From a virus, in the IMG/VR virus record IMGVR_UViG_3300047373_000049, positions 1-28,016 of that record: DNA of 28,016 bases. The stretch is one strand, 5' to 3'. The notes beneath the pieces are model-generated. The model made no database searches. It saw only the letters and a program-made list of their open reading frames with translations, and had not been told where the DNA came from. Position 1 is the stretch's first letter, and each line of letters opens with the position of its first letter. The position numbers were made by a program, and so were the translations under genes. Of this stretch, positions 1,828-23,595 are shown one piece after another.

Positions 1828-4800
1828 TTATGATGTTGTTTCATAAAAACCTGAAAATATTACTCTTTCACCAGCAGCTAAAGTTCTTGCTGCCGAACCA
1901 CCAGCTTCTATAAAGAAAAATCGTGTAGCACCATTATCTAAAAAACCACCTTCAAGATTTGCGGCTGAACTTGTCCAGCCTACTGTAAAAGCAGAATGAG
2001 CAGCACTTACTGTAAATGGTAAACCTGTAACTTCTTGTGTAGTTGTTGAACCTGTAGCAGAAGTAATATCTCCATGTACATATACTTTATTACCAATTTT
2101 TGTGTATTTAGCAGTACCAGTCATATTGTTACCACCATGAACTGGAGTCCAAGTACCTTCTTCATAATCGTCAAGTTTGTTTGCTGTACCTGTACCGCCT
2201 AGATAAGCACCGCCACCAAGATAGAGGTCTTTGAAAGCATTACTTGTAGTACCTAGAGAAATTTCTCCGTTAACTGGAGTAGTTGTTTCATCAATAGGAA
2301 AAATTGCATTAGTTGTTCCACTAAAACCAGCACCAGTACCTGAAGATGGGTTTAAAATTAAACCAAGCGTTGAACCACCACGAGATGAGATACTTCCAAC
2401 TGGTGAGCCATCTTTTCTAAATAATGCAATATCACCATCAGAGCTAAGACGGTCAAATAGAGCAGCAACATTGTTAGTAACTGTAGACCTAACGCCATGA
2501 ATTTTACTTATCTCTAGTCCTGCACCTGAGCCATTTGTAGTTCCAATCAAAAGTGTTCCTGATGAGTCCAGTCTCATAGCCTCAACTAAATTTGTTGAAC
2601 CATTTGATGTGTAAAATCTTAAATCATAAGTACTACCAACTGAATTTGTAGAAAAAGATTGTATACCTGCTCTGTTACCATCACCAGCACCTGAACCATC
2701 ACCTGAATAAATTAAATATCCACCTGTTAATACACCTGCTGTTTTAGAAGCCGTTGAGGTTGTAGACACAAGACCATCATTAGATGATATTGATAAGGCT
2801 TCTGTAGGACTAGTAGTTCCAATTCCAACATTGCCTGATGAGTCGATGCGGACTTTTTCTGTTCCATTATATGCTGTACTTCCAGTCTTAAAAGAAATAT
2901 ACCTACTGCCCGGACCACTTGCGTCAAATGTTAAATGTCTATTAGCTGTTGCAACATGTATTGCTTCTGCTTCAATAGTCCCAACATCAATACTGAATCT
3001 TTCTACCCCACTAGAATCTCCAAATCCTAATTCATATGAAGGACTACTCGTTCCAATTCCAACACGTCCTGATGAGTCTATTCTTGCTCTTTCAGTAAAA
3101 GTTGTACCATTTGTAGAGTTACCAAAAATTATTGCATTGTTGTTACCACCAGCACTATCAGCAGCACCTATAAAGGTTGCACCACTATTATTTGAAAATG
3201 TACCAAACTGTGTAGTATTGCTAGACCTGTTTATTCTTATACCTTCATACCAGTTTGCAGAGCCTTGTTTAATTTCTAATTTAGCTGCTGGTGATGAGTC
3301 TCCAATTCCAACATTGCCTGTATCAGTTATACGAAGTGCTTCAGTACCTCCTGAAGCTGTCAAGAATCTATGATTTGTATTAGTATTGTAAAAAGAACCA
3401 GTTGCATCTACACCAATATTTGTAAACTCAGAACCATCATCTATTCTTATGTAAGTGTTATTTGCTGTTCCTGATATATGAAGTTGAGTCTCAGGACTAG
3501 TCGTTCCAATTCCAACACGTCCTGATGAGTCTACCGAAATTCCACCACTTCCATCATTAGTGAGTTTTCCTGATAAATAAATATCTTTAAACCTAATATT
3601 ACTAACACCTAAATCAACAGCATTATCATTATTAGCACTTGCTGTAGTTGGTGAAATTGCTGAAGCTGCATCATTTATTCTAAGGCCAACAACACCCTGC
3701 ACTAAAGATAAATCACTTCCTATTTCTTTAATGACTCCATTGTTAGCTCCTGCAGTAATAGTGCCACTAATATCAGCACTACCATCAACAGTCAAACCAT
3801 CCATTGTGGCTGTACCAGTAATATTAATATCACCAGTACCTGTTATATCGCTTGAATTTAAGTCTAAATCACCACCTAATTGTGGAGTTGTATCTTCTAC
3901 AACATTGTTAATAGAAACAGCTTGTACTCTAGCATCAGTGTAATAAAGGTTAGAGCCTTCTGATAAATCGCCAGTGTCTTTTGTTGCAAGTCTTGTATCA
4001 AAATCAGTGTTAGCTCTTGCACTTGTATAATATAAATTAGTACCTTCTGATAAATCGCTTGTAGACTTGCCACCAAATGCAGAATCAAATCTTGTAGAAG
4101 TATAGTAAAGATTGCTAGTGCCTTCAGATACATCATCAGTATCTTTACTTGCTAGTCTTGTATCAAATCTAGCATCAGTATAATAAAGATTAGTACCCTC
4201 TGATAAATCACTTGTAGACTTAGCAGTAAAGGCTGAATCAAATCTTGCTTGGGTATAGTAAAGGTTGGTGCCTTCAGTTAAATCATCAGTATCATGATTA
4301 GATAAGCTAGATACAGTTCCTGTAACTGCTCCTGTTAAGTTACCCTCAACATTGACTACTAAAGTTCCTAGTGAGTTAAGTGTTATGTTTCCTGTGGCAC
4401 TGCCATCTGCTGTAGTAAGACCCATTGTAAATTTATCAACTGATTCATCCCACATAAAGATACTATTATCAGCAGTACCTCTATTAATAAGCATACCTGA
4501 GTCATTGACAGGACTTCCTGTAAGACCTGCATTAAGTTGGAATAGGTTATCTTCTATATCTAAATTAGTTGTATCTAATGAGGTTAGAGTGCCATTAACA
4601 GTTAAATTACCTGCTACTGTTAAGCTGTCTGCAATTTGTACATCATCAGGTAATGATAATGTTACGTCTGCTGATTCACTACCACTTCCTGATACTGTTA
4701 TTTTATTAGCAGTTCCTGTAATGGTTTGAATATAATTGCCTGTAGTGTCAGTTCCTAATGCAACTGAATTAGCAGCTACAGTATTTGCTTGTATTCCTAA

Positions 4801-16092: not shown

Positions 16093-18672
16093 TTAGTCGC
16101 TTGATTTACAGAAAGATACTGCATGTCTTACAGCTACATCAACAGTTTGTAGAGCAACAATTCTTACTCCACCTGAAGTTGATAATGCATAAGGGTCAAC
16201 AGTAATATCTAGTCCACCATACATACCAATCAATAGGTCTGCAAAGTTACCAAAGTAGAAGTCACCACTTGTTACTTGATTACTTCTGACAACATTATAG
16301 CCATTCATGCTATTGTCAGGAGAAACAACAAACTGAGCAGTGCCAGTAGCCTTTTCAGTTGTTTTTAAAGTACCAAAGTCAGCAGGTCTACATATATAAC
16401 CTAAAGAACCAGTCAATGCGTTGTCATTAGCAACAGCACTTTCCATAGCTACGATTTCTGCCCATGTTGGGTTAGCAGCAGCGAAAGTTGTAGTGTTAAT
16501 ACCTGAAGTATTAGCAATACCTGTTGGTTGACCACTTGAACCTGAACCAGCTAAAGCACCTAAGTCAATTGCAGTAGCGATTGATTTTGTTAGGTCATCT
16601 CTGATTAAGTTCTCAACATCTAAAGAAGATTGTTGTAATAACAGTCTTGTTACATCAGTAAAAGCACCAATGACTTTAGGAGACATAGTTACTGAACCAG
16701 CAGTAAACTCAGACTCAGCAGCAGCACTTCCTTCTGTTGCAATCCATCCAGCAGATGCACCAGCAGTTTTCTTAGGAATTACAACATTACCTTGTAATCC
16801 TCTAAGCATAGTAGCACCAGCTTGCATTACTGATGACTCATTTCTAAGTACATCAATAAAGTCATTTCCTCTGTAATCTTCAGCTACTAGAGTTGAATCA
16901 TCAGATGTGTTTAGGTCTCTTTTACCCCAGCTTCTTAGCACTTCAGCAGGAAGCATAATGCCTTGAGCATCTTTACCATACTGTCTTGCAGCTTCAGCAG
17001 AACATTCAAATTCAAATGCTGCATCTTGTTGTGCTTTTCTGTCAGAAGGATTAGCCATAGCTCTAATTGCTTTAACTAGACTAAATTCTCTTACTTCTTC
17101 TTTGCTCATACCGATTTCTGAAGGAGTTTCTAAAGGAGTGTTGTTAGAAATATTTTCTAATAATACACCTCTGAATTCTTCAACAGATACGCCATCAGCG
17201 ATTGCTTTGTCAGCTAAATCTCTTTTATTGTGTCTAGCTGCTAAATCTATAATCTCTTTTGAGTTTCTTTTAAATTCAGCTTTAGCTTCATCAATAGTCT
17301 GAGTTCTAACTTCATCAAGATTAATATCTTGTTTCTTTTCGTTTTCCATTATTCTCACCTTTGTGTTATTTATTTGTTTTTCTTTAGAACGACCAACACC
17401 AACAAGTCTTGACTGGTCAGCAGGGACTGATACAGAAGAAACTTCCATAGGAGTCCATTGAGCTTTGTAGTAAGTCTCATCATTGTCTTGATATCGTTCC
17501 AGTTTATCAATGCGATACCCTACCGATATGTTCATCCGTATCCCATCTTTTACATCTTCAAATACTTCACGAGCTAAAGCAGATTTACCAAATCTAACTA
17601 CAGCAGTTGTCCTTTTTGCTGTCTCATCTAATTTGAATTCTTCAATCACACCAATTTGTTTTTCCATATTATGGTCTAACAAAAGTGGGGCACGTCCCGA
17701 ATTTATAAACTCCATGTTTATATCATCAGCCGAATGTCCTAGCACTTCCATGCCAAAACTTCTTTCTACAGGCTCTTCACTAGAAACACCTACGCGAACT
17801 ATTCTCTTTTCTTCATCAAGATAAGAGTGTTTAGATAAATCAATAGTTCTATATTTCATAGGCATATCAATTACTTTTCTTTCCTCATCTGATTCAGTCA
17901 TAGATACTTCTTCAGTTGTCTCTAATTCTTCACCTTCATGTTCTACATCCTCATGTTTCTCAAACTCAACAATAACAGTATTGTCAGTCTCAGTAACATT
18001 AAGGATATGTCTATCTTCTTTATTCATAGATTTCTCCTCTTCATTTGTTAATAAAGGATGTTTTTCCAATTCATTAGAATTGAAATCGTTAAAATCCCTA
18101 ATGGGATTAATTTTTGTTAAAGTGCTGAATTTATGTCCCACTTCAGTATCAGTAGGCTCACCACTTCTATAAACTTGTATTAATGCAGCAGGGTCATCTT
18201 CAGTTCCAGTAATAGTTAGTTGACTATTAGGAATATTGATTTTCCCATCTCTTTCAATCTTAATTATTTTTCCTCTAGCTCTTCCACCTGCACTATCCCA
18301 ACTTACAAAATCGCCTAGTTTAAGTGCATCAGGCATAGCTCTATCTTCTTCTTTTTTCATTTGTTCTACCAATCTTTTTGACCAACTAAATCCAGCATCA
18401 CCACCCCATAATGCCCATGCTATTCTTCCATTAGATGGATAACCTTCTTCACCCTGTTTAAAGCCCTTGCCCTTTTTATCTACTTCATGTCTTGAGAAGA
18501 AGCTATACATCCTTTTTACAGTATCATCAGATAGGTTTTCACCAGCCACTATTTGTCTTGCTCTTACAGCTCCAACCCTAGTGCCACCTCTACCATGTTC
18601 CTCACGCCAGTCCAAACCTCTTTGAGCTTCAGTTTTCATACCATCATTAGGCTTAGGCATCTTCTTCTTCAT
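16093..18672 (-). CDS. fused head polyprotein: unknown domain + Tudor-like domain + prohead protease + major capsid protein
   Basis: 859 aa from the ATG at 18670-18672 (AGGGTGGAG just upstream; a GTG at 18678 would add two residues). Residues 1-110: a phage domain with GLDWREEHGRGGTRVGAVRA, FFSRHEVDKKGKG and GYPSNGRIAWALWGGD. Residues 112-190: a Tudor-like (HVA1/DUF2945-type) domain, VSWDSAGGRARGK ... TGTEDDPAALIQVYR ... GHKFSTLTKI. Residues about 216-430: HK97-family prohead protease with catalytic His334 in LLLDHN, Ser383 in NISVGYR, and WTPMEVSSVSVPAD. From 442: an acidic/helical scaffold-like stretch, then an HK97-fold capsid (about 525-859). Protease-capsid fusions are known in marine phages; the protease would cut the scaffold and capsid parts free. 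It overlaps the portal by 20 nt. Two internal SD/ATG pairs are listed separately. Confidence 0.88.
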   Translation of the reverse strand: MKKKMPKPNDGMKTEAQRGLDWREEHGRGGTRVGAVRARQIVAGENLSDDTVKRMYSFFSRHEVDKKGKGFKQGEEGYPSNGRIAWALWGGDAGFSWSKRLVEQMKKEEDRAMPDALKLGDFVSWDSAGGRARGKIIKIERDGKINIPNSQLTITGTEDDPAALIQVYRSGEPTDTEVGHKFSTLTKINPIRDFNDFNSNELEKHPLLTNEEEKSMNKEDRHILNVTETDNTVIVEFEKHEDVEHEGEELETTEEVSMTESDEERKVIDMPMKYRTIDLSKHSYLDEEKRIVRVGVSSEEPVERSFGMEVLGHSADDINMEFINSGRAPLLLDHNMEKQIGVIEEFKLDETAKRTTAVVRFGKSALAREVFEDVKDGIRMNISVGYRIDKLERYQDNDETYYKAQWTPMEVSSVSVPADQSRLVGVGRSKEKQINNTKVRIMENEKKQDINLDEVRTQTIDEAKAEFKRNSKEIIDLAARHNKRDLADKAIADGVSVEEFRGVLLENISNNTPLETPSEIGMSKEEVREFSLVKAIRAMANPSDRKAQQDAAFEFECSAEAARQYGKDAQGIMLPAEVLRSWGKRDLNTSDDSTLVAEDYRGNDFIDVLRNESSVMQAGATMLRGLQGNVVIPKKTAGASAGWIATEGSAAAESEFTAGSVTMSPKVIGAFTDVTRLLLQQSSLDVENLIRDDLTKSIATAIDLGALAGSGSSGQPTGIANTSGINTTTFAAANPTWAEIVAMESAVANDNALTGSLGYICRPADFGTLKTTEKATGTAQFVVSPDNSMNGYNVVRSNQVTSGDFYFGNFADLLIGMYGGLDITVDPYALSTSGGVRIVALQTVDVAVRHAVSFCKSSD
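17347..17362 (-). promoter_or_regulatory. internal ribosome binding site and ATG for the capsid part
   Basis: Within the fused ORF, AAAGGTGAG (17354-17362) stands before an in-frame ATG at 17347-17349 (AAGG to ATG 8 nt). Translation from here gives a 418-aa scaffold-plus-capsid protein, a normal size for an HK97-type capsid precursor. The codons just before it read as a low-complexity linker (KEKQINNTK), as expected of a former intergenic leader. Confidence 0.6.
18025..18039 (-). promoter_or_regulatory. internal ribosome binding site and ATG for the protease part
   Basis: GAGGAG (18034-18039) with 6 nt spacing precedes an in-frame ATG at 18025-18027 (Met216, MNKEDRHILNV). Starting here would skip the first two domains and make a 644-aa protease-capsid protein. 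The encoded NEEEKS is itself purine-rich, so the match could be partly chance. Confidence 0.5.
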
Positions 18673-20149
18673 CTCCACCCTGTATCTTTGCTTCTACAGG
18701 TAGCTTTTGACCAAATGGCTGATAGGCTAGTTCAATATCATATTGTTTAGCTAGTTCTATTTCTTTTTGATGTTGTTCAAATAACTCTTCAGTATCTCTG
18801 CCATAAGATGCAGAAATATCAGAATAGGTAAGTGTTCCATTTTGCAAACCAATAACATTAGCCTGCATTTCTTTTAGTGGGTCAATCCAAGCAAAACTTC
18901 TTGGTATGTAATTAATTGACCTTGCGAATTTATCATATTTACCCATGGGTAAATTAATATATCCAGTTGAGATAGACATCTCTAACCATGATTGGAATAC
19001 TGGGTTTACAAAATGCTCAATTACAAACTGTTGATATATCTGATACATACTTCTATCTTCTAAAGCACCTTGTCTGATACTTGAATAATTTACTGAAGTT
19101 AAATCATTAGATAATGAGTGATAAGAAATGTTTAAACCTGATGCAATACTTCTTAATACACTAGTTGTAAATGACTCAAAAGCAGATGTTGGGTGGGTTG
19201 GGTCAAAACTTTTAAAGTCCATACCTTGAGGTAATTGTTCAAATACTCCAGCCTGTGCGTTCATTGTTGGATTAAAGGTGTCTTCATAAGCACCATCACC
19301 AACATATCCATCACCATCAGGTGAAGTAAAGAAACCCATCTTAGATGCACCAACTCTAGCTGCAACTATTTCTGCTTCTAAATAACCATTTAACATTTTC
19401 ACATTAGCCATTGCTGTAGCAACCAAAGAAACACCTCTAGTTTGTTCTGCCCTAGAAGGTAGGTAAGCATGGATAATCTCATCAGCAGGAACTCTAATGT
19501 GTTGAGCTTGAGCTAAATAATTTCTGTCATATGGATGGTCTTTATATAAATGATAAGCAACTGGTCTGTCATACTTATCTACTTCAACACCCATTTTAAT
19601 TTTGTTTCCAGTAGCTTTGTAAATGTCATTCTTGTTTTCATCTAAATGGTCAGCTTCTAAAAACTGTAATTCAAAACCAAAAGGTGAATTAGTGTTTTTT
19701 ATTTTCCTGATTAGTACTTCGCCATCTCTACATAAAGATTCAACAAATATTTTTTGGCAATCTAAGAATGATAATCTGCCATTAGTTGTACAGTTACCAA
19801 CTTGACCCCATTCTTTCCAAGCTCTTTCAATCAGCAGGTTAGCTCCAATATCTAAAGAACCATTATCGTTCCTAGATTTGGAGCTCACTCTTATGCCATG
19901 CTTACCGATAACATTAGATACCATCAGGTTAAGGTATCGTGCTATATAGCTATCGTTTCTTGCAAGTTCTCTAGCTCTATCTCTTAATATTCTTATGTTA
20001 TCTTTTATTTCAGCATCAGCACTTGTTGAGCTTGTTACAAAATCTGCAAACAATCTACCAGTGTTAGCACCAGTATAGCTTCTTCTATATGCTTGTCTTT
20101 TTTTCTTCTTAGGCTCGTTTACGCCTAATATCCTGTTATACCATGCCAT
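18653..20149 (-). CDS. portal protein, lambda (GpB) family
   Basis: 498 aa. N-terminal basic stretch (EPKKKKRQAYRRSYTGANTG), then LRDRARELARNDSYIARYLNLM and VSNVIGKHGIRV, the family's stem-wing signature. Further marks are ERAWKEWG, FVESLCRDGEVLIRK, FGFELQFLEADHLD, GVEVDKYDRPVAYHLYKDHP, IIHAYLPSRAEQTRG, and the C-terminal SYHSLSNDLTSVNYSSIRQG. All are in the order seen in lambda-type portals, which form the dodecameric DNA channel at one capsid vertex. Length is normal. It overlaps the gpW-like gene by 1 nt and the head polyprotein by 20 nt, so the three are translationally linked. Confidence 0.92.
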   Translation of the reverse strand: MAWYNRILGVNEPKKKKRQAYRRSYTGANTGRLFADFVTSSTSADAEIKDNIRILRDRARELARNDSYIARYLNLMVSNVIGKHGIRVSSKSRNDNGSLDIGANLLIERAWKEWGQVGNCTTNGRLSFLDCQKIFVESLCRDGEVLIRKIKNTNSPFGFELQFLEADHLDENKNDIYKATGNKIKMGVEVDKYDRPVAYHLYKDHPYDRNYLAQAQHIRVPADEIIHAYLPSRAEQTRGVSLVATAMANVKMLNGYLEAEIVAARVGASKMGFFTSPDGDGYVGDGAYEDTFNPTMNAQAGVFEQLPQGMDFKSFDPTHPTSAFESFTTSVLRSIASGLNISYHSLSNDLTSVNYSSIRQGALEDRSMYQIYQQFVIEHFVNPVFQSWLEMSISTGYINLPMGKYDKFARSINYIPRSFAWIDPLKEMQANVIGLQNGTLTYSDISASYGRDTEELFEQHQKEIELAKQYDIELAYQPFGQKLPVEAKIQGGDEEEDA

Positions 20150-20766
20150 TATGTGTAGCTCTTGGGTGTTGAGCCAGTAGCACTACCAAAATTAACCTTA
20201 ATGGTATTGCCTGACCCTCTGTTGTTTTTAATTCTCTGTATTTTAACTTCTTTTAGATATTCAGCTTTGTATCTATCTCTAAAAGTCATTAGTTCATCTA
20301 TAGACATTCTTGATAATGACCTTCCAGCTATAGACATAGATGATTGGTCTATATTTGCCCTGTTCTCAATTACAGCTTCTATGCTATCTAAAACAATCTT
20401 TGCATGACTTCTAACTGAAGCAGTTGTAGTTGCATAATTATCTTGAACTTCTACAAATCCTTCTTCTAGTTTAACTCTTGCAGAGTCAGAGCTTCTAGTC
20501 ATATAAGAAACCCAGTTGTAATTGCCTTTTGTGTATGAAGCAGTGTTGTTTGCTTCAATGATATAGGTATCGTTTGATTCAGTTGCAGTTAATGTGAAAT
20601 TAGAAGCTGTAGCACCATCAACTAAATTGAACTCATAGGATAATGAGTAAGATGCTATTGGGTAATCTTCTGATAAATCGTCTCTTTTCCATGCCCAAAA
20701 GTCTCCCAACTGAAGCTCAGTAGGAACTTGGGATGGATAATTTGTTGAATCAAATTTGTTGCTCAA
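20149..20766 (-). CDS. gpW-like head-tail joining protein with extra N-terminal beta domain
   Basis: 205 aa from a TTG start at 20764-20766; GAGG lies 7 nt upstream and no ATG or GTG is available in frame. Residues 1-115 are beta-rich (VPTELQLGDFWAWKRDDLSEDYP, SYEFNLVDG, YNWVSYMTRSSD). Residues about 115-195 carry the gpW-like helical hairpin: LDSIEAVIENRANIDQSSMS, then IAGRSLSRMSIDELMTFRDR and YKAEYLKEVKI, ending in a strand, GNTIKVNFG. gpW stops the packaged DNA leaking from the portal and gives the tail a docking site. The same two-part architecture occurs in other phages, so the fusion itself is probably established. It is the first gene after the terminator at 20844-20880 and lies directly upstream of the portal gene. 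Confidence 0.75.
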   Translation of the reverse strand: MSNKFDSTNYPSQVPTELQLGDFWAWKRDDLSEDYPIASYSLSYEFNLVDGATASNFTLTATESNDTYIIEANNTASYTKGNYNWVSYMTRSSDSARVKLEEGFVEVQDNYATTTASVRSHAKIVLDSIEAVIENRANIDQSSMSIAGRSLSRMSIDELMTFRDRYKAEYLKEVKIQRIKNNRGSGNTIKVNFGSATGSTPKSYT

Positions 20767-20787
20767 GCAAAAACCTCATAAATGTTT

Positions 20788-20805
20788 TAGATATATCTAT
20801 ATCTA
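20788..20805. promoter_or_regulatory. perfect 8-bp palindrome, operator-like
   Basis: TAGATATA-TC-TATATCTA, an inverted repeat of two 8-nt arms with a 2-nt centre, 22 nt upstream of the TTG start of the gpW-like gene. Its position between the terminator and the first head gene suggests a binding site for a regulator or an RNA hairpin in the leader. Such AT palindromes arise easily in AT-rich DNA. Confidence 0.4.
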
Positions 20806-20833
20806 ACACTAAAGTGCAATAGGTTATTGTCAA
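20805..20833 (-). promoter_or_regulatory. candidate promoter for the head operon (weak -10)
   Basis: A perfect TTGACA at 20828-20833 (minus strand) lies just after the terminator at 20844-20880 and in front of the head genes. At 17 nt spacing the -10 position reads AGTGTT, a poor match, so the site may use another sigma factor or an activator, or may be chance. Confidence 0.3.
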
Positions 20834-20843
20834 TATCAAAAGG

Positions 20844-20880
20844 GCAAAAAATAAAAAAGGCTCAATTAAGAGCCTTTTGT
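20844..20880 (-). terminator. rho-independent terminator after the 117-codon gene
   Basis: On the minus strand AAAAGGCTC-TTAATT-GAGCCTTTT forms a perfect 9-bp stem (20855-20878) followed by TTATTTTTTG, a T-rich tail. It starts 16 nt after the stop of the upstream gene and would end transcription before the head genes unless antiterminated. Confidence 0.88.
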
Positions 20881-20893
20881 CATTTTGGTGGGA

Positions 20894-21247
20894 TTATGCG
20901 GTTTGCATATTAACCTGCTCTACATCTTCTTCAGTTAATGTGTGATTAGGATTACCAATCGCACAACCTTTCATATAAAAATCACCAAGAGATTCTATAG
21001 ATTTATATAAGTCAGATAGGTCAGTATTGTTTTCTGAATATCCAAGACATACAGTTTGTGAATCACTCATAAAAAACATGCTCTCTATCATTCTTTCTGA
21101 GGGTGTTTTAGTAAGTGCAAAGTTAGTTACATAGTTTTGCACCATGCTACATGCTTTTTTATACTTTGCTCTATCTTTAGTTCTAATTTCAAAATCAGCA
21201 AGTACATCTCCATCTCTTGTCATCATTGTATCTAATTCGCTTTTCAT
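20894..21247 (-). CDS. unknown protein in a single-gene unit between terminase and head genes
   Basis: 117 aa from the ATG at 21245-21247, which has a strong AAGGAG 6 nt upstream; a longer form from 21271 has a poorer site. Sequence MKSELDTMMTRDGDVLADFE, then KDRAKYKKACSMVQNYVTNF and MIESMFFMSDSQTVCLGYSE. It has three Cys residues (37, 72 and 95 from this start, by rough count) but no clear metal motif, no membrane segment and no family I recognise. A weak promoter candidate lies upstream and a clear terminator downstream, so it can be transcribed alone, as is typical of a moron. It breaks the usual terminase-to-head gene order. Confidence 0.72.
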   Translation of the reverse strand: MKSELDTMMTRDGDVLADFEIRTKDRAKYKKACSMVQNYVTNFALTKTPSERMIESMFFMSDSQTVCLGYSENNTDLSDLYKSIESLGDFYMKGCAIGNPNHTLTEEDVEQVNMQTA

Positions 21248-21300
21248 GTTTGACTCCTTTTTGTTTAACATACTACCTATATTACCTATAAATATATAAA

Positions 21301-21329
21301 TGTATATAGATTGAATGAAAAAACAGCAA
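21301..21329 (-). promoter_or_regulatory. candidate promoter for the single-gene unit
   Basis: TTGCTG (21324-21329), 17 nt spacer, TATACA (21301-21306) on the minus strand, with very AT-rich flanks. Two direct copies of TATAGGTA with a 9-nt period follow at 21274-21290, close to the likely transcription start. Each box matches the consensus only partly. Confidence 0.35.
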
Positions 21330-23150
21330 TTATTTCCAAGAAGTAGCGAAATTTCCTCTATTTATGCCTTTTTGTGGTCTATTTTGTGTTTTTTCTCTTG
21401 GTTTTGACTCTTGGGTAAGTATTTTGTTCTCAATAGAATCATAGTTAGGATTCAAGATGTAGATAGCAGCAAAGTTATAGACCAATGTATCTAATGCTTC
21501 ATTTCTTGGTCTAATTTGCTTCCAAGCAAGTGTTTTTCTTCCTCTAACAAACTTAGTGATTCTTTTCTCACTTGTAAGTTGCTTAAAGTACTCTTCATCT
21601 AAGTCTGAGCAAAAATGCAGTGTAGTTGTATCAGGTTCAGTAGATAATCTAGCAAATATAGCTTCTTTGGCACTATCAGAACCAACACCATATAGAACAG
21701 CCTTATTCTTACCAACAAATGTAGGTCTATTTGCTATTGGCTTACCTGCTGTTGATAAACCTTTGATTGCAAAGATTCTTCTTGACTGTCTTGGTTTAGT
21801 AAACTGATAAACCATATTGGTATGATGTCCACCTGAGTCAATAGTGCAACATGATATAGGTATCAATCTCTCTGATTCAGTTTTAAATCTTTTCTTTAGG
21901 TAAGCATCTAAGTCTGACCAAACATTCTGAGCATTTGGGTCTCCCCAAAATATCTTGTAATCACAAACCCATGCTTCATAGTTCTTACCCCATCCAACTA
22001 ATTGCAGTTCTAGTCTATCCTTCTGAGTATCAACACCAGCAGTAAGAACTAAAACATCTTCAGGAATGGTTGTGTAGTCATAGTTTAATCTTCTGCTTAG
22101 CAATGTCTCATGGTCTACAGCATCACCTTGCTCTTCCCATGATTCTCCAAGAGCAGTATTTATCCAAGTCTTTAACATCTCAGGATTCTTTTTAGCCTCA
22201 AGAAATGATTTAGCCATATCTGCCCAAGTAGACCAAGGTGAATATAGTTCTGATATATGAAAACCTGCTGTATCTGATTTAGGTGCAGAAGCTATCCACT
22301 CTCCATGCTTTAACATCCATTGTTTTTTAGATTCATTTATTACAGAGCCACAATGCTCACAAGCATAAGTAGCAGTCTCAGGCTTATCTTCTTCCCAAAC
22401 TACATTCTTCCATTTTAATATTTGTGTTTCTTCACATTCAGGACAAGGCACATGGTAATAGCGTTTGTCTGATTCTTCAAAAGCAGTTTCTATTCTTGAT
22501 AGTCCTTTTATTGTTGGGGTTGAGCATAGATATATCTTCTTATTCCAAAAGGTAGTTGTTCTTTTAGTTGCAAGTGATATTGGGTCTCCCTCTGCTCCTG
22601 CTGATGCTTCGTACCTGTCACATTCGTCTCCCAAAACGACACGCACTGCTCTTGAGCTAAGACCTGATGCAGAATTAGAACCAACTATGTTTAAGTTACC
22701 ACCTGCAAACTTCTTAGATAAAACTGTATTACCACTATCTCTGCTTCTTGGGTCTTTAACACAATCCCTAATCTTTTCTGAGTCTCTAATCATCATAGCA
22801 AGTCTATCTTTACTAAATGCTTGAGCCATGGCTAGCGTAGGTTGCATGATTAACATAGGAGCAGGGTCTTGGTCTATGTAGTAACCAATAACGTTTAGTA
22901 ATATCTCAGTTGCACCAACCTGAGCAGATTTCATAAATACTATTCTTTGAATATCATGGTCATTAAAGGTATTCATTATCTCTCTCTGAAATGGAGCTCT
23001 GTCACTTTTCCACTGACCAGCTTCTGCTGAAGATTCAGGTGAAAGCCTTCTGTAGTTATCTGCCCAGTCGCTAATCTTCAGATTGGGTGGTGGAGTCCAA
23101 ACCTGATTGGTCTCCTGTATCACCTTTTCTATATTTTTGAGGTATTCCAT
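21330..23150 (-). CDS. terL: terminase large subunit, GpA family
   Basis: 606 aa. Conserved ATPase: QREIMNTFND, then MKSAQVGATE (residues 73-82, Walker A variant), SGLSSRAVRVVLGDECDRY (Walker B VVLGDE at 171-176) and CSTPTIKG (209-216, coupling motif). A zinc-binding insert follows with C236-x2-C239 and C264-x2-C267. The nuclease domain has acidic residues in LTAGVDTQKDRLE (Asp374), CTIDSGG (Asp438) and NEALDTLVYN (Asp554). GpA-type enzymes cut concatemers at cos and pump DNA into the procapsid. The ATG overlaps the small-subunit gene by 80 nt; no other in-frame start lies before residue 59. Its C-terminus is basic and disordered. Confidence 0.95.
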   Translation of the reverse strand: MEYLKNIEKVIQETNQVWTPPPNLKISDWADNYRRLSPESSAEAGQWKSDRAPFQREIMNTFNDHDIQRIVFMKSAQVGATEILLNVIGYYIDQDPAPMLIMQPTLAMAQAFSKDRLAMMIRDSEKIRDCVKDPRSRDSGNTVLSKKFAGGNLNIVGSNSASGLSSRAVRVVLGDECDRYEASAGAEGDPISLATKRTTTFWNKKIYLCSTPTIKGLSRIETAFEESDKRYYHVPCPECEETQILKWKNVVWEEDKPETATYACEHCGSVINESKKQWMLKHGEWIASAPKSDTAGFHISELYSPWSTWADMAKSFLEAKKNPEMLKTWINTALGESWEEQGDAVDHETLLSRRLNYDYTTIPEDVLVLTAGVDTQKDRLELQLVGWGKNYEAWVCDYKIFWGDPNAQNVWSDLDAYLKKRFKTESERLIPISCCTIDSGGHHTNMVYQFTKPRQSRRIFAIKGLSTAGKPIANRPTFVGKNKAVLYGVGSDSAKEAIFARLSTEPDTTTLHFCSDLDEEYFKQLTSEKRITKFVRGRKTLAWKQIRPRNEALDTLVYNFAAIYILNPNYDSIENKILTQESKPREKTQNRPQKGINRGNFATSWK

Positions 23151-23595
23151 TTTGTGCTAACTCATTAAGTGCTTCATGCACTTGTTCCTTTAATATCAAT
23201 TCTGCTTCTGCATACTTATCTACTGTAATAACCTGATGTGCAATTCTTGATGGTAGTCCTAGTAGTTTAGCTCTAGCATTAGATACATAATCAACCCAAG
23301 TATCTTCTACAAGTTGTGCTGGTATTAGACTACCTTCTAACTCTTCTACTTCTAACTCTGCTTTTCTAGCTTGAGCTGCTGTTAGTTTTGTTTTCTCTTC
23401 AGCAATATCCCCAGTTCCACTGCGTTTGTTGTAGCCACCTAGTTTTCTAAGGTATGAAATGTAAGCAACTCTGCAAACATCTACGTTAAGTGGACTTCTC
23501 CCCATTTTTGAGGGAAGTACACCGTCTCTAATCAATTCTGAGACTCTTTTGACTGATAAGTCCAAGTGGTCTGCAATCTCTCGTTGTGTAGCCAT
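23071..23595 (-). CDS. terS: terminase small subunit, Nu1-like
   Basis: 174 aa. The N-terminus is a winged-helix DNA-binding domain (TQREIADHLDLSVKRVSELI, then GVLPSKMGRSPLNVDVCRVAYI). Residues about 65-130 contain EEKTKLTAAQARKAELEVEE, then GSLIPAQLVEDTWVDY and NARAKLLGLPSRIAHQ, the standard order for Nu1-type subunits that bind cos DNA and recruit the large subunit. The C-terminus is Asp/Ser/Thr-rich and overlaps the large-subunit gene in another frame. The ATG at 23593-23595 has only a weak ribosome site. Confidence 0.88.
   Translation of the reverse strand: MATQREIADHLDLSVKRVSELIRDGVLPSKMGRSPLNVDVCRVAYISYLRKLGGYNKRSGTGDIAEEKTKLTAAQARKAELEVEELEGSLIPAQLVEDTWVDYVSNARAKLLGLPSRIAHQVITVDKYAEAELILKEQVHEALNELAQNGIPQKYRKGDTGDQSGLDSTTQSED

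Follow-up and report, generated by a model that had tools for sequence, protein, structure and literature searches.

Background

Mobile regulatory cassettes known as PeSLs were reportedly described from T4-like phages by Arbiol in 2010 and by Comeau in 2014, and they invite comparison with a small gene, here called X, that lies between the terminase and head genes of IMG/VR virus record IMGVR_UViG_3300047373_000049 (the window, a complete virus record of 28,016 bp with a GC content of 35%). As cited in PMC4503421, promoter and stem-loop motifs of this kind are credited with gene shuffling in T4-like phages. As in PeSLs, a conserved candidate early promoter and a stem-loop or terminator border variable small genes at the locus studied here, an arrangement thought to enable modular shuffling. 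However, the phage in question is roughly 30-35 kb in size and not T4-like, and it offers one fixed slot at the joint between terminase and head genes. Whereas a PeSL is one composite motif found in many copies, the signals here flank a single gene and each occurs once in the window, and the leader is nearly invariant (including its ribosome-binding site) and is common to the phage's own early operon. The cassette works like a PeSL, but is a distinct variant that we do not class as one.

Other described systems share parts of this anatomy. The morons of temperate (e.g. lambdoid) phages are likewise extra genes among late genes, with a promoter and terminator of their own (here a candidate promoter and a predicted terminator), that are present or absent in close relatives. 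In contrast, the family to which the present phages seem to belong is described as strictly lytic and almost without integrases (PMC12629253), and at least 20 interchangeable genes are found behind the same signals. The anti-phage hotspots of P2 and P4 (PMC9122126) also comprise a single locus between conserved genes at which unrelated accessory genes turn over and are the closest functional counterpart of the cassette, yet they span 1-5 kb and hold recognisable defence systems next to cos (PMC9122126), whereas the slot described here mostly holds one small gene of no known family between fixed regulatory ends. Finally, the closest isolates, Roseobacter phages of the CRP-822 type (TerL, the terminase large subunit, about 48-50% identical), have the same gene order of TerS, TerL, gpW-type gene, portal and capsid, but show no gap between terminase and gpW-type gene. 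Their packaging module is described as conserved, and the portion of PMC12629253 that we could consult mentions no such slot.

In our reading of the locus, a swappable cassette holds a single gene, here X, whose product is an early-expressed and soluble accessory effector and which is exchanged through shared ends; taken as a whole we hold this reading to be probable. That a swappable cassette lies between terminase and gpW/portal is close to certain. It would extend from the TerL stop codon to just short of the head-operon promoter, and would begin with a sigma-70-type promoter and a short leader containing a strong ribosome-binding site. A single small gene, or in rare cases a pair, would follow, and an intrinsic terminator would close the unit.

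Occupancy of the slot in related phages

Relatives of the window were retrieved with TerL (80 loci, 88-98% identity), and the TerL DNA tree comprised 90 loci, 86 of which were scorable for the slot, with 4 unscored. Occupancy is variable: the slot is filled in 46 scorable relatives and empty in 40. Measured between the TerL stop codon and the start of gpW, slots are either short (89-96 bp, empty) or long (420-1060 bp, occupied), and across both classes TerL, the portal and mostly gpW remain highly similar. The TerL tree calls for a minimum of 14 changes of occupancy, of which supported branches force 10; once cargo identity is included, the number of changes rises to 34.

A preliminary description, made from the window alone, had proposed a self-contained, moron-like gene separating two modules that are usually adjacent, and had suggested looking for the gene in related phages. 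Adjacency is indeed the usual state, terminase and gpW being ~0-4 nt apart in isolated Roseobacter relatives. Besides the window, X occupies the slot between TerL and gpW only in a single contig (L002/L124), in which the genes next to it match those of the window at 100%; in all other relatives the slot is empty or filled with an unrelated gene, and a conserved structural role for X is consequently excluded. The moron-like interpretation is upheld by this pattern of presence and absence, by the near-isogenic pairs described below, and by the predicted promoter-leader and terminator that accompany the gene.

The same data bear on the possibility that X is a minor structural or packaging protein of the late operon, encoded between terminase and gpW. 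While its position and strand agree with those of the late genes, the 40 empty loci, the unrelated genes found at others (with most flanking head genes about 90-100% identical), and the lack of any gap of this kind in isolated Roseobacter relatives leave this explanation largely refuted, and we give it almost no weight.

Cargo diversity and sequence borders

Cargo is diverse: among the products of the 42 distinct occupied slots are at least 20 small proteins (65-184 amino acids) that BLASTP does not relate to one another, and no Pfam match was obtained for 22 cargo representatives. Cargo open reading frames are open in almost all alleles. One slot (L050) contains two cargo genes in tandem, with a copy of the leader before each, and in another (L026) the cargo frame extends into the terminator stem and ends there. 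A cargo of family F0 in the slot of L134 has the start codon ATT rather than ATG, and possibly represents an inactivated allele.

The borders of these replacements are sharp. Across 139 pairs of slots that share a leader allele and hold unrelated cargo, the two sequences start to differ within -4 to +20 nt of the ATG and match again from the terminator or the stop codon. Two contigs (L034 and L054), for example, hold unrelated cargo genes between near-identical flanks: the 2435 nt that lead up to the start region agree at 99.0%, and the 1203 nt past the cargo at 99.4%. A third (L029) has no cargo in the slot, and its flanks match those of L034 at 99.5% and 99.8%. X is 97% identical in DNA to a copy in contig L003, an identity that ends at the leader and near the stop, where the C-terminal residues read QVNMQTA in X versus VSK in the other copy. 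The position of these borders makes it quite likely that cargo is exchanged via the shared ends. Co-infecting phages would swap cargo by recombination, through the leader on one side and the terminator and gpW side on the other, and loss of the cargo would produce the empty allele.

High turnover at one terminase-adjacent site is also what might be seen if the cassette propagated on its own as a selfish or homing element, with cargo of no benefit to the phage; homing endonucleases are often located beside terminase genes. However, no nuclease, integrase or transposase family was matched by X or by 21 other cargo representatives, and empty alleles persist alongside occupied ones. Moreover, X is under purifying selection, its pairwise dN/dS of 0.11-0.44 indicating that the protein is maintained. 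We therefore consider a selfish element very improbable.

Predicted regulatory signals of the cassette

The ends of the cassette are conserved. Thirty of the 42 distinct occupied slots carry exactly the same leader 27-mer, ATGTTAAACAAAAAGGAGTCAAACATG, start codon included, in front of unrelated cargo; variants close to it occur in 4 slots, and a second type ending in AAGGAGTTAAAAATG in 6. The conserved leader has one match in the window, and none in shuffled sequence. On the other side, the terminator core GGCTCTTAATTGAGCC is present in all distinct occupied slots except L064 and L071, about 106-108 nt before gpW, and a terminator 29-mer was found in 54 viral stretches, in all cases at this slot where scorable. 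L064 and L071 show the same arrangement built from other parts, with AAAAAAGGAGATAAAAATG as leader and AAGCCCCTTAATGGGGCTTTTTT as terminator, so that the arrangement itself seems to be favoured. The preliminary description had called the terminator beside X the clearest of the window, and this holds: it has the best U-tract among the window's candidates, and folds at -16 kcal/mol as against -5.0 +/- 2.0 in shuffles (z = -5.5).

The other two signals proposed there fared less evenly. Most related cassettes have TATACA or TTGATA, a spacer of 16-18 nt and TATAAT at the equivalent place (10-11 of 12 consensus matches), with the -10 element ending 6-8 nt upstream of the leader. The candidate promoter therefore stands as a promoter-like module that is conserved before unrelated cargo and good in most alleles, but the window's own version, TATACA-16 nt-TAATAT, is weak (8 of 12 matches) and was not reported by promoter scans. 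Two tandem copies of TATAGGTA do exist, at 21283-21290 and 21274-21281, where they overlap the -10 region, but they are confined to one leader allele and missing from most relatives; a role for them as a recombination or regulatory element was rejected on these grounds.

The promoter-leader and predicted terminator that accompany unrelated cargo speak for a separate transcription unit, and with a promoter, a leader with ribosome-binding site and a terminator of its own, the cassette would constitute a unit that does not feed the head operon. Furthermore, the early operon opens with another version of this leader (see below), so that the cargo, although located among late genes, would probably be produced as soon as infection begins. 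Early and independent expression is, on balance, rather likely: host polymerase would read the cassette from the beginning of infection, independently of the neighbouring late genes, and the terminator would stop it from driving the head operon.

It could alternatively be proposed that the promoter-terminator pair acts as an insulator between terminase and head operons, the open reading frame being a dispensable passenger. The leader and terminator are conserved far better than the cargo, and the allele with ATT in place of its start codon would suit such a passenger. Nevertheless, nearly half of the relatives manage without both signals, and open frames in almost all alleles, together with purifying selection on X, argue against a dispensable passenger, making an insulator improbable.

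Cargo at other positions and the early operon

X is found at several positions. Its homologues outside the slot between TerL and gpW lie in four other contigs. In L004 and L005 it comes immediately after the lysis genes, preceded by ATGTTAAATAAAA(A/T)TAAGGAGTTAAATAACATG, while in L003, where it shares that leader, it is found next to replication genes at one end of the contig. The fourth contig, L006, represents a different phage type (Terminase_6, another portal family and an HK97-type capsid), where X (3397-3741) has a promoter and terminator of its own and is flanked by capsid-protease and head genes, from which it differs in strand. At this same site L189 and L190 (3001-3465) carry cargo of family F1, between flanks about 95% identical over 2.6 kb, and this F1 is 82% identical to the F1 of the TerL slot. 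Since X and F1 recur at these sites, a common cargo pool supplies no fewer than three positions, spread over two phage types, and X and the other cargo would be small soluble accessory effectors drawn from it. The accessory slot of the second phage type (L006, L189, L190) has a conserved TTATAATATG promoter region.

In whole relatives, a promoter-leader module of the slot type opens the early region, and the exact slot leader stands at its start in L090, L101, L102, L119, L120 and L131. The first early-operon gene behind the promoter-leader differs in nearly every relative (e.g. L120, L090, L101 and the L143-L164 records), and forms a second hypervariable slot. Relatives with X itself at this early position also exist.

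A further suggestion, which we regard as speculative and on present evidence doubtful, is that leader and terminator are dedicated exchange ends, and that the phages of one marine host pool one-gene effector cassettes for fixed sockets in several phage types, in an integron-like manner without an integrase, driven by phage recombination functions.

The product of X and the likely role of cargo

The 117-codon gene of the preliminary description was confirmed as an open reading frame, with flanking genes identified by Pfam and PHROG. A 125-amino acid reading from an in-frame ATG at 21271 probably does not reflect the true start, this ATG falling within the conserved leader. The absence of any recognised family for X, noted at the outset, also stands: Pfam, PHROGs, PADLOC and solved structures gave no credible match, no relatives were found in annotated phages and GTDB genomes, and a profile search with X added no viral relatives. 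No transmembrane-like segments were detected in X or the other cargo proteins, although no dedicated signal-peptide program was run. A viral fold search with the structure model of X returned nothing below E = 0.001. Weak cargo matches to ribonucleotide reductase, clamp loader, GajB and Cas6 were near chance and were not used, and a reading of X as a DNA mimic was set aside, its net charge being only -7.

Host-takeover and anti-defence proteins are typically small, soluble and without known relatives, with an early-type leader, rapid turnover and purifying selection, and we infer a role of this type for the cargo. Most likely it would act on functions or defences of the host, probably the marine lineage SAR86, although we put the chances of this at about even. 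The cargo might instead target competing phages, through superinfection exclusion or inter-phage interference. Such genes sit in phage hotspots elsewhere (the P2/P4 hotspots, PMC9122126), and a target of this kind fits both the high turnover and the early-type promoter. On the other hand, the family is reported as strictly lytic (PMC12629253), which would limit any benefit to co-infection, and no cargo has a transmembrane-like segment, unlike common exclusion proteins. Competing phages are consequently an unlikely target, and superinfection exclusion via a membrane or surface protein, among the roles first envisaged, is unlikely for the latter reason.

Several points weigh against our reading of X as the early-expressed, exchanged effector of such a cassette. 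Promoter activity, early timing and termination are predictions from sequence, and the -10 element is degenerate in the window's own leader allele. Similarly, the recombination route is deduced from borders. No homologue with a known function was identified for X, and the structure model, built from five sequences, is poor (mean pLDDT 52), so that the argument for a host or defence effector comes from the anatomy of the locus. Among known defence families no convincing cargo match was found, PADLOC returning weak hits only, and the single-cell link to SAR86 considered below might have arisen as a chimera during amplification.

Wild phages with flanks that agree at about 99%, and in which the socket gene is unrelated or absent, provide natural isogenic test sets for phage genes without known function, and the constant leader and terminator are a DNA tag with which such cargo genes could be retrieved from any virome. 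The alternative contents of one socket in near-identical viruses point to a shared accessory-gene pool that may aid the virus against its host. The list of at least 20 cargo families without known relatives supplies candidates for host takeover or anti-defence in SAR86, which is uncultivated but dominant among marine lineages.

Phage family and probable host

The core genes of the CRP-822 type, and their order, are matched by the window phages. A low-GC subgroup of that family, subgroup V, has SAR86 as its predicted host (PMC12629253), and from the low GC content of the window together with the link to SAR86 we infer that the window phages belong to this subgroup. Their host is probably SAR86. 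Contig 4 of the SAR86 single cell AG-390-L11 has chromosomal genes (histidine biosynthesis, thymidylate kinase, acyl transferase) to about 50 kb, followed by this phage type, with an empty slot, to its end, and may represent either an integrated phage or an amplification chimera. This phage-chromosome joint, in a 72.7-kb contig (CACEDS010000004.1; L142, L173-L176), occurs although the family is reported to be lytic.

Genes and signals around the slot

The coordinates of the slot and its surroundings are given in Table 1. Packaging genes follow one another on the minus strand in the order TerS, TerL, X, gpW-type gene, portal and protease-capsid fusion, and TerL and the portal are of lambda type by Pfam. 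The candidate promoter of the head operon, TTGACA-16-TAGTGT, is seen before gpW in empty as well as occupied alleles, and consequently lies outside the cassette. The near-palindrome beside it, possibly an operator of the head operon, is likewise present in empty alleles, placing the cassette between two transcription units. In five contigs (L093, L108, L115, L128 and L133) TerL is about 59% and TerS about 48-53% identical to the window, whereas gpW and portal are 88-95% identical, and a normal cassette lies between the two modules; with terminase replaced and gpW/portal conserved, the cassette lies at a joint of exchange between terminase and head modules.

Table 1 Features of the slot and neighbouring packaging genes in the window
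Feature	Position	Strand	Remarks
TerS	23071-23595	minus	
TerL (terminase large subunit)	21330-23150	minus	Pfam GpA_ATPase and GpA_nuclease, PHROG 15; stop codon forms the 5' border of the slot
Candidate cassette -35 element, TATACA	21301-21306	minus	Aligns with the equivalent element of relatives with unrelated cargo
Candidate -10 element, TAATAT	21279-21284	minus	Leader allele of the window; TATAAT in most other alleles
Conserved leader ATGTTAAACAAAAAGGAGTCAAAC	21248-21271	minus	Contains Shine-Dalgarno AAGGAG (21254-21259)
Cargo gene X	20894-21247	minus	117 amino acids, predicted soluble; ATG at 21247, AAGGAG 6 nt upstream
Intrinsic terminator, AAAAGGCTCTTAATTGAGCCTTTT then TTATTTTTT	20855-20878	minus	9-bp stem
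Head-operon candidate promoter, TTGACA-16-TAGTGT	20806-20833	minus	Proposed from sequence comparison only
Near-palindrome TTAGATATAGATATATCTAA before gpW	20787-20806	minus	Possible operator; in nearly all alleles, with small changes
gpW-type head-tail-joining gene	20149-20766	minus	PHROG 5774, E = 3.7e-32; 3' border of the slot
Portal gene	18653-20149	minus	Pfam Phage_portal_2
Protease-capsid fusion	16093-18678	minus	PHROG 617 and 4523

In the last of these genes, a single open reading frame of 861 codons unites the head maturation protease region with the major capsid protein.
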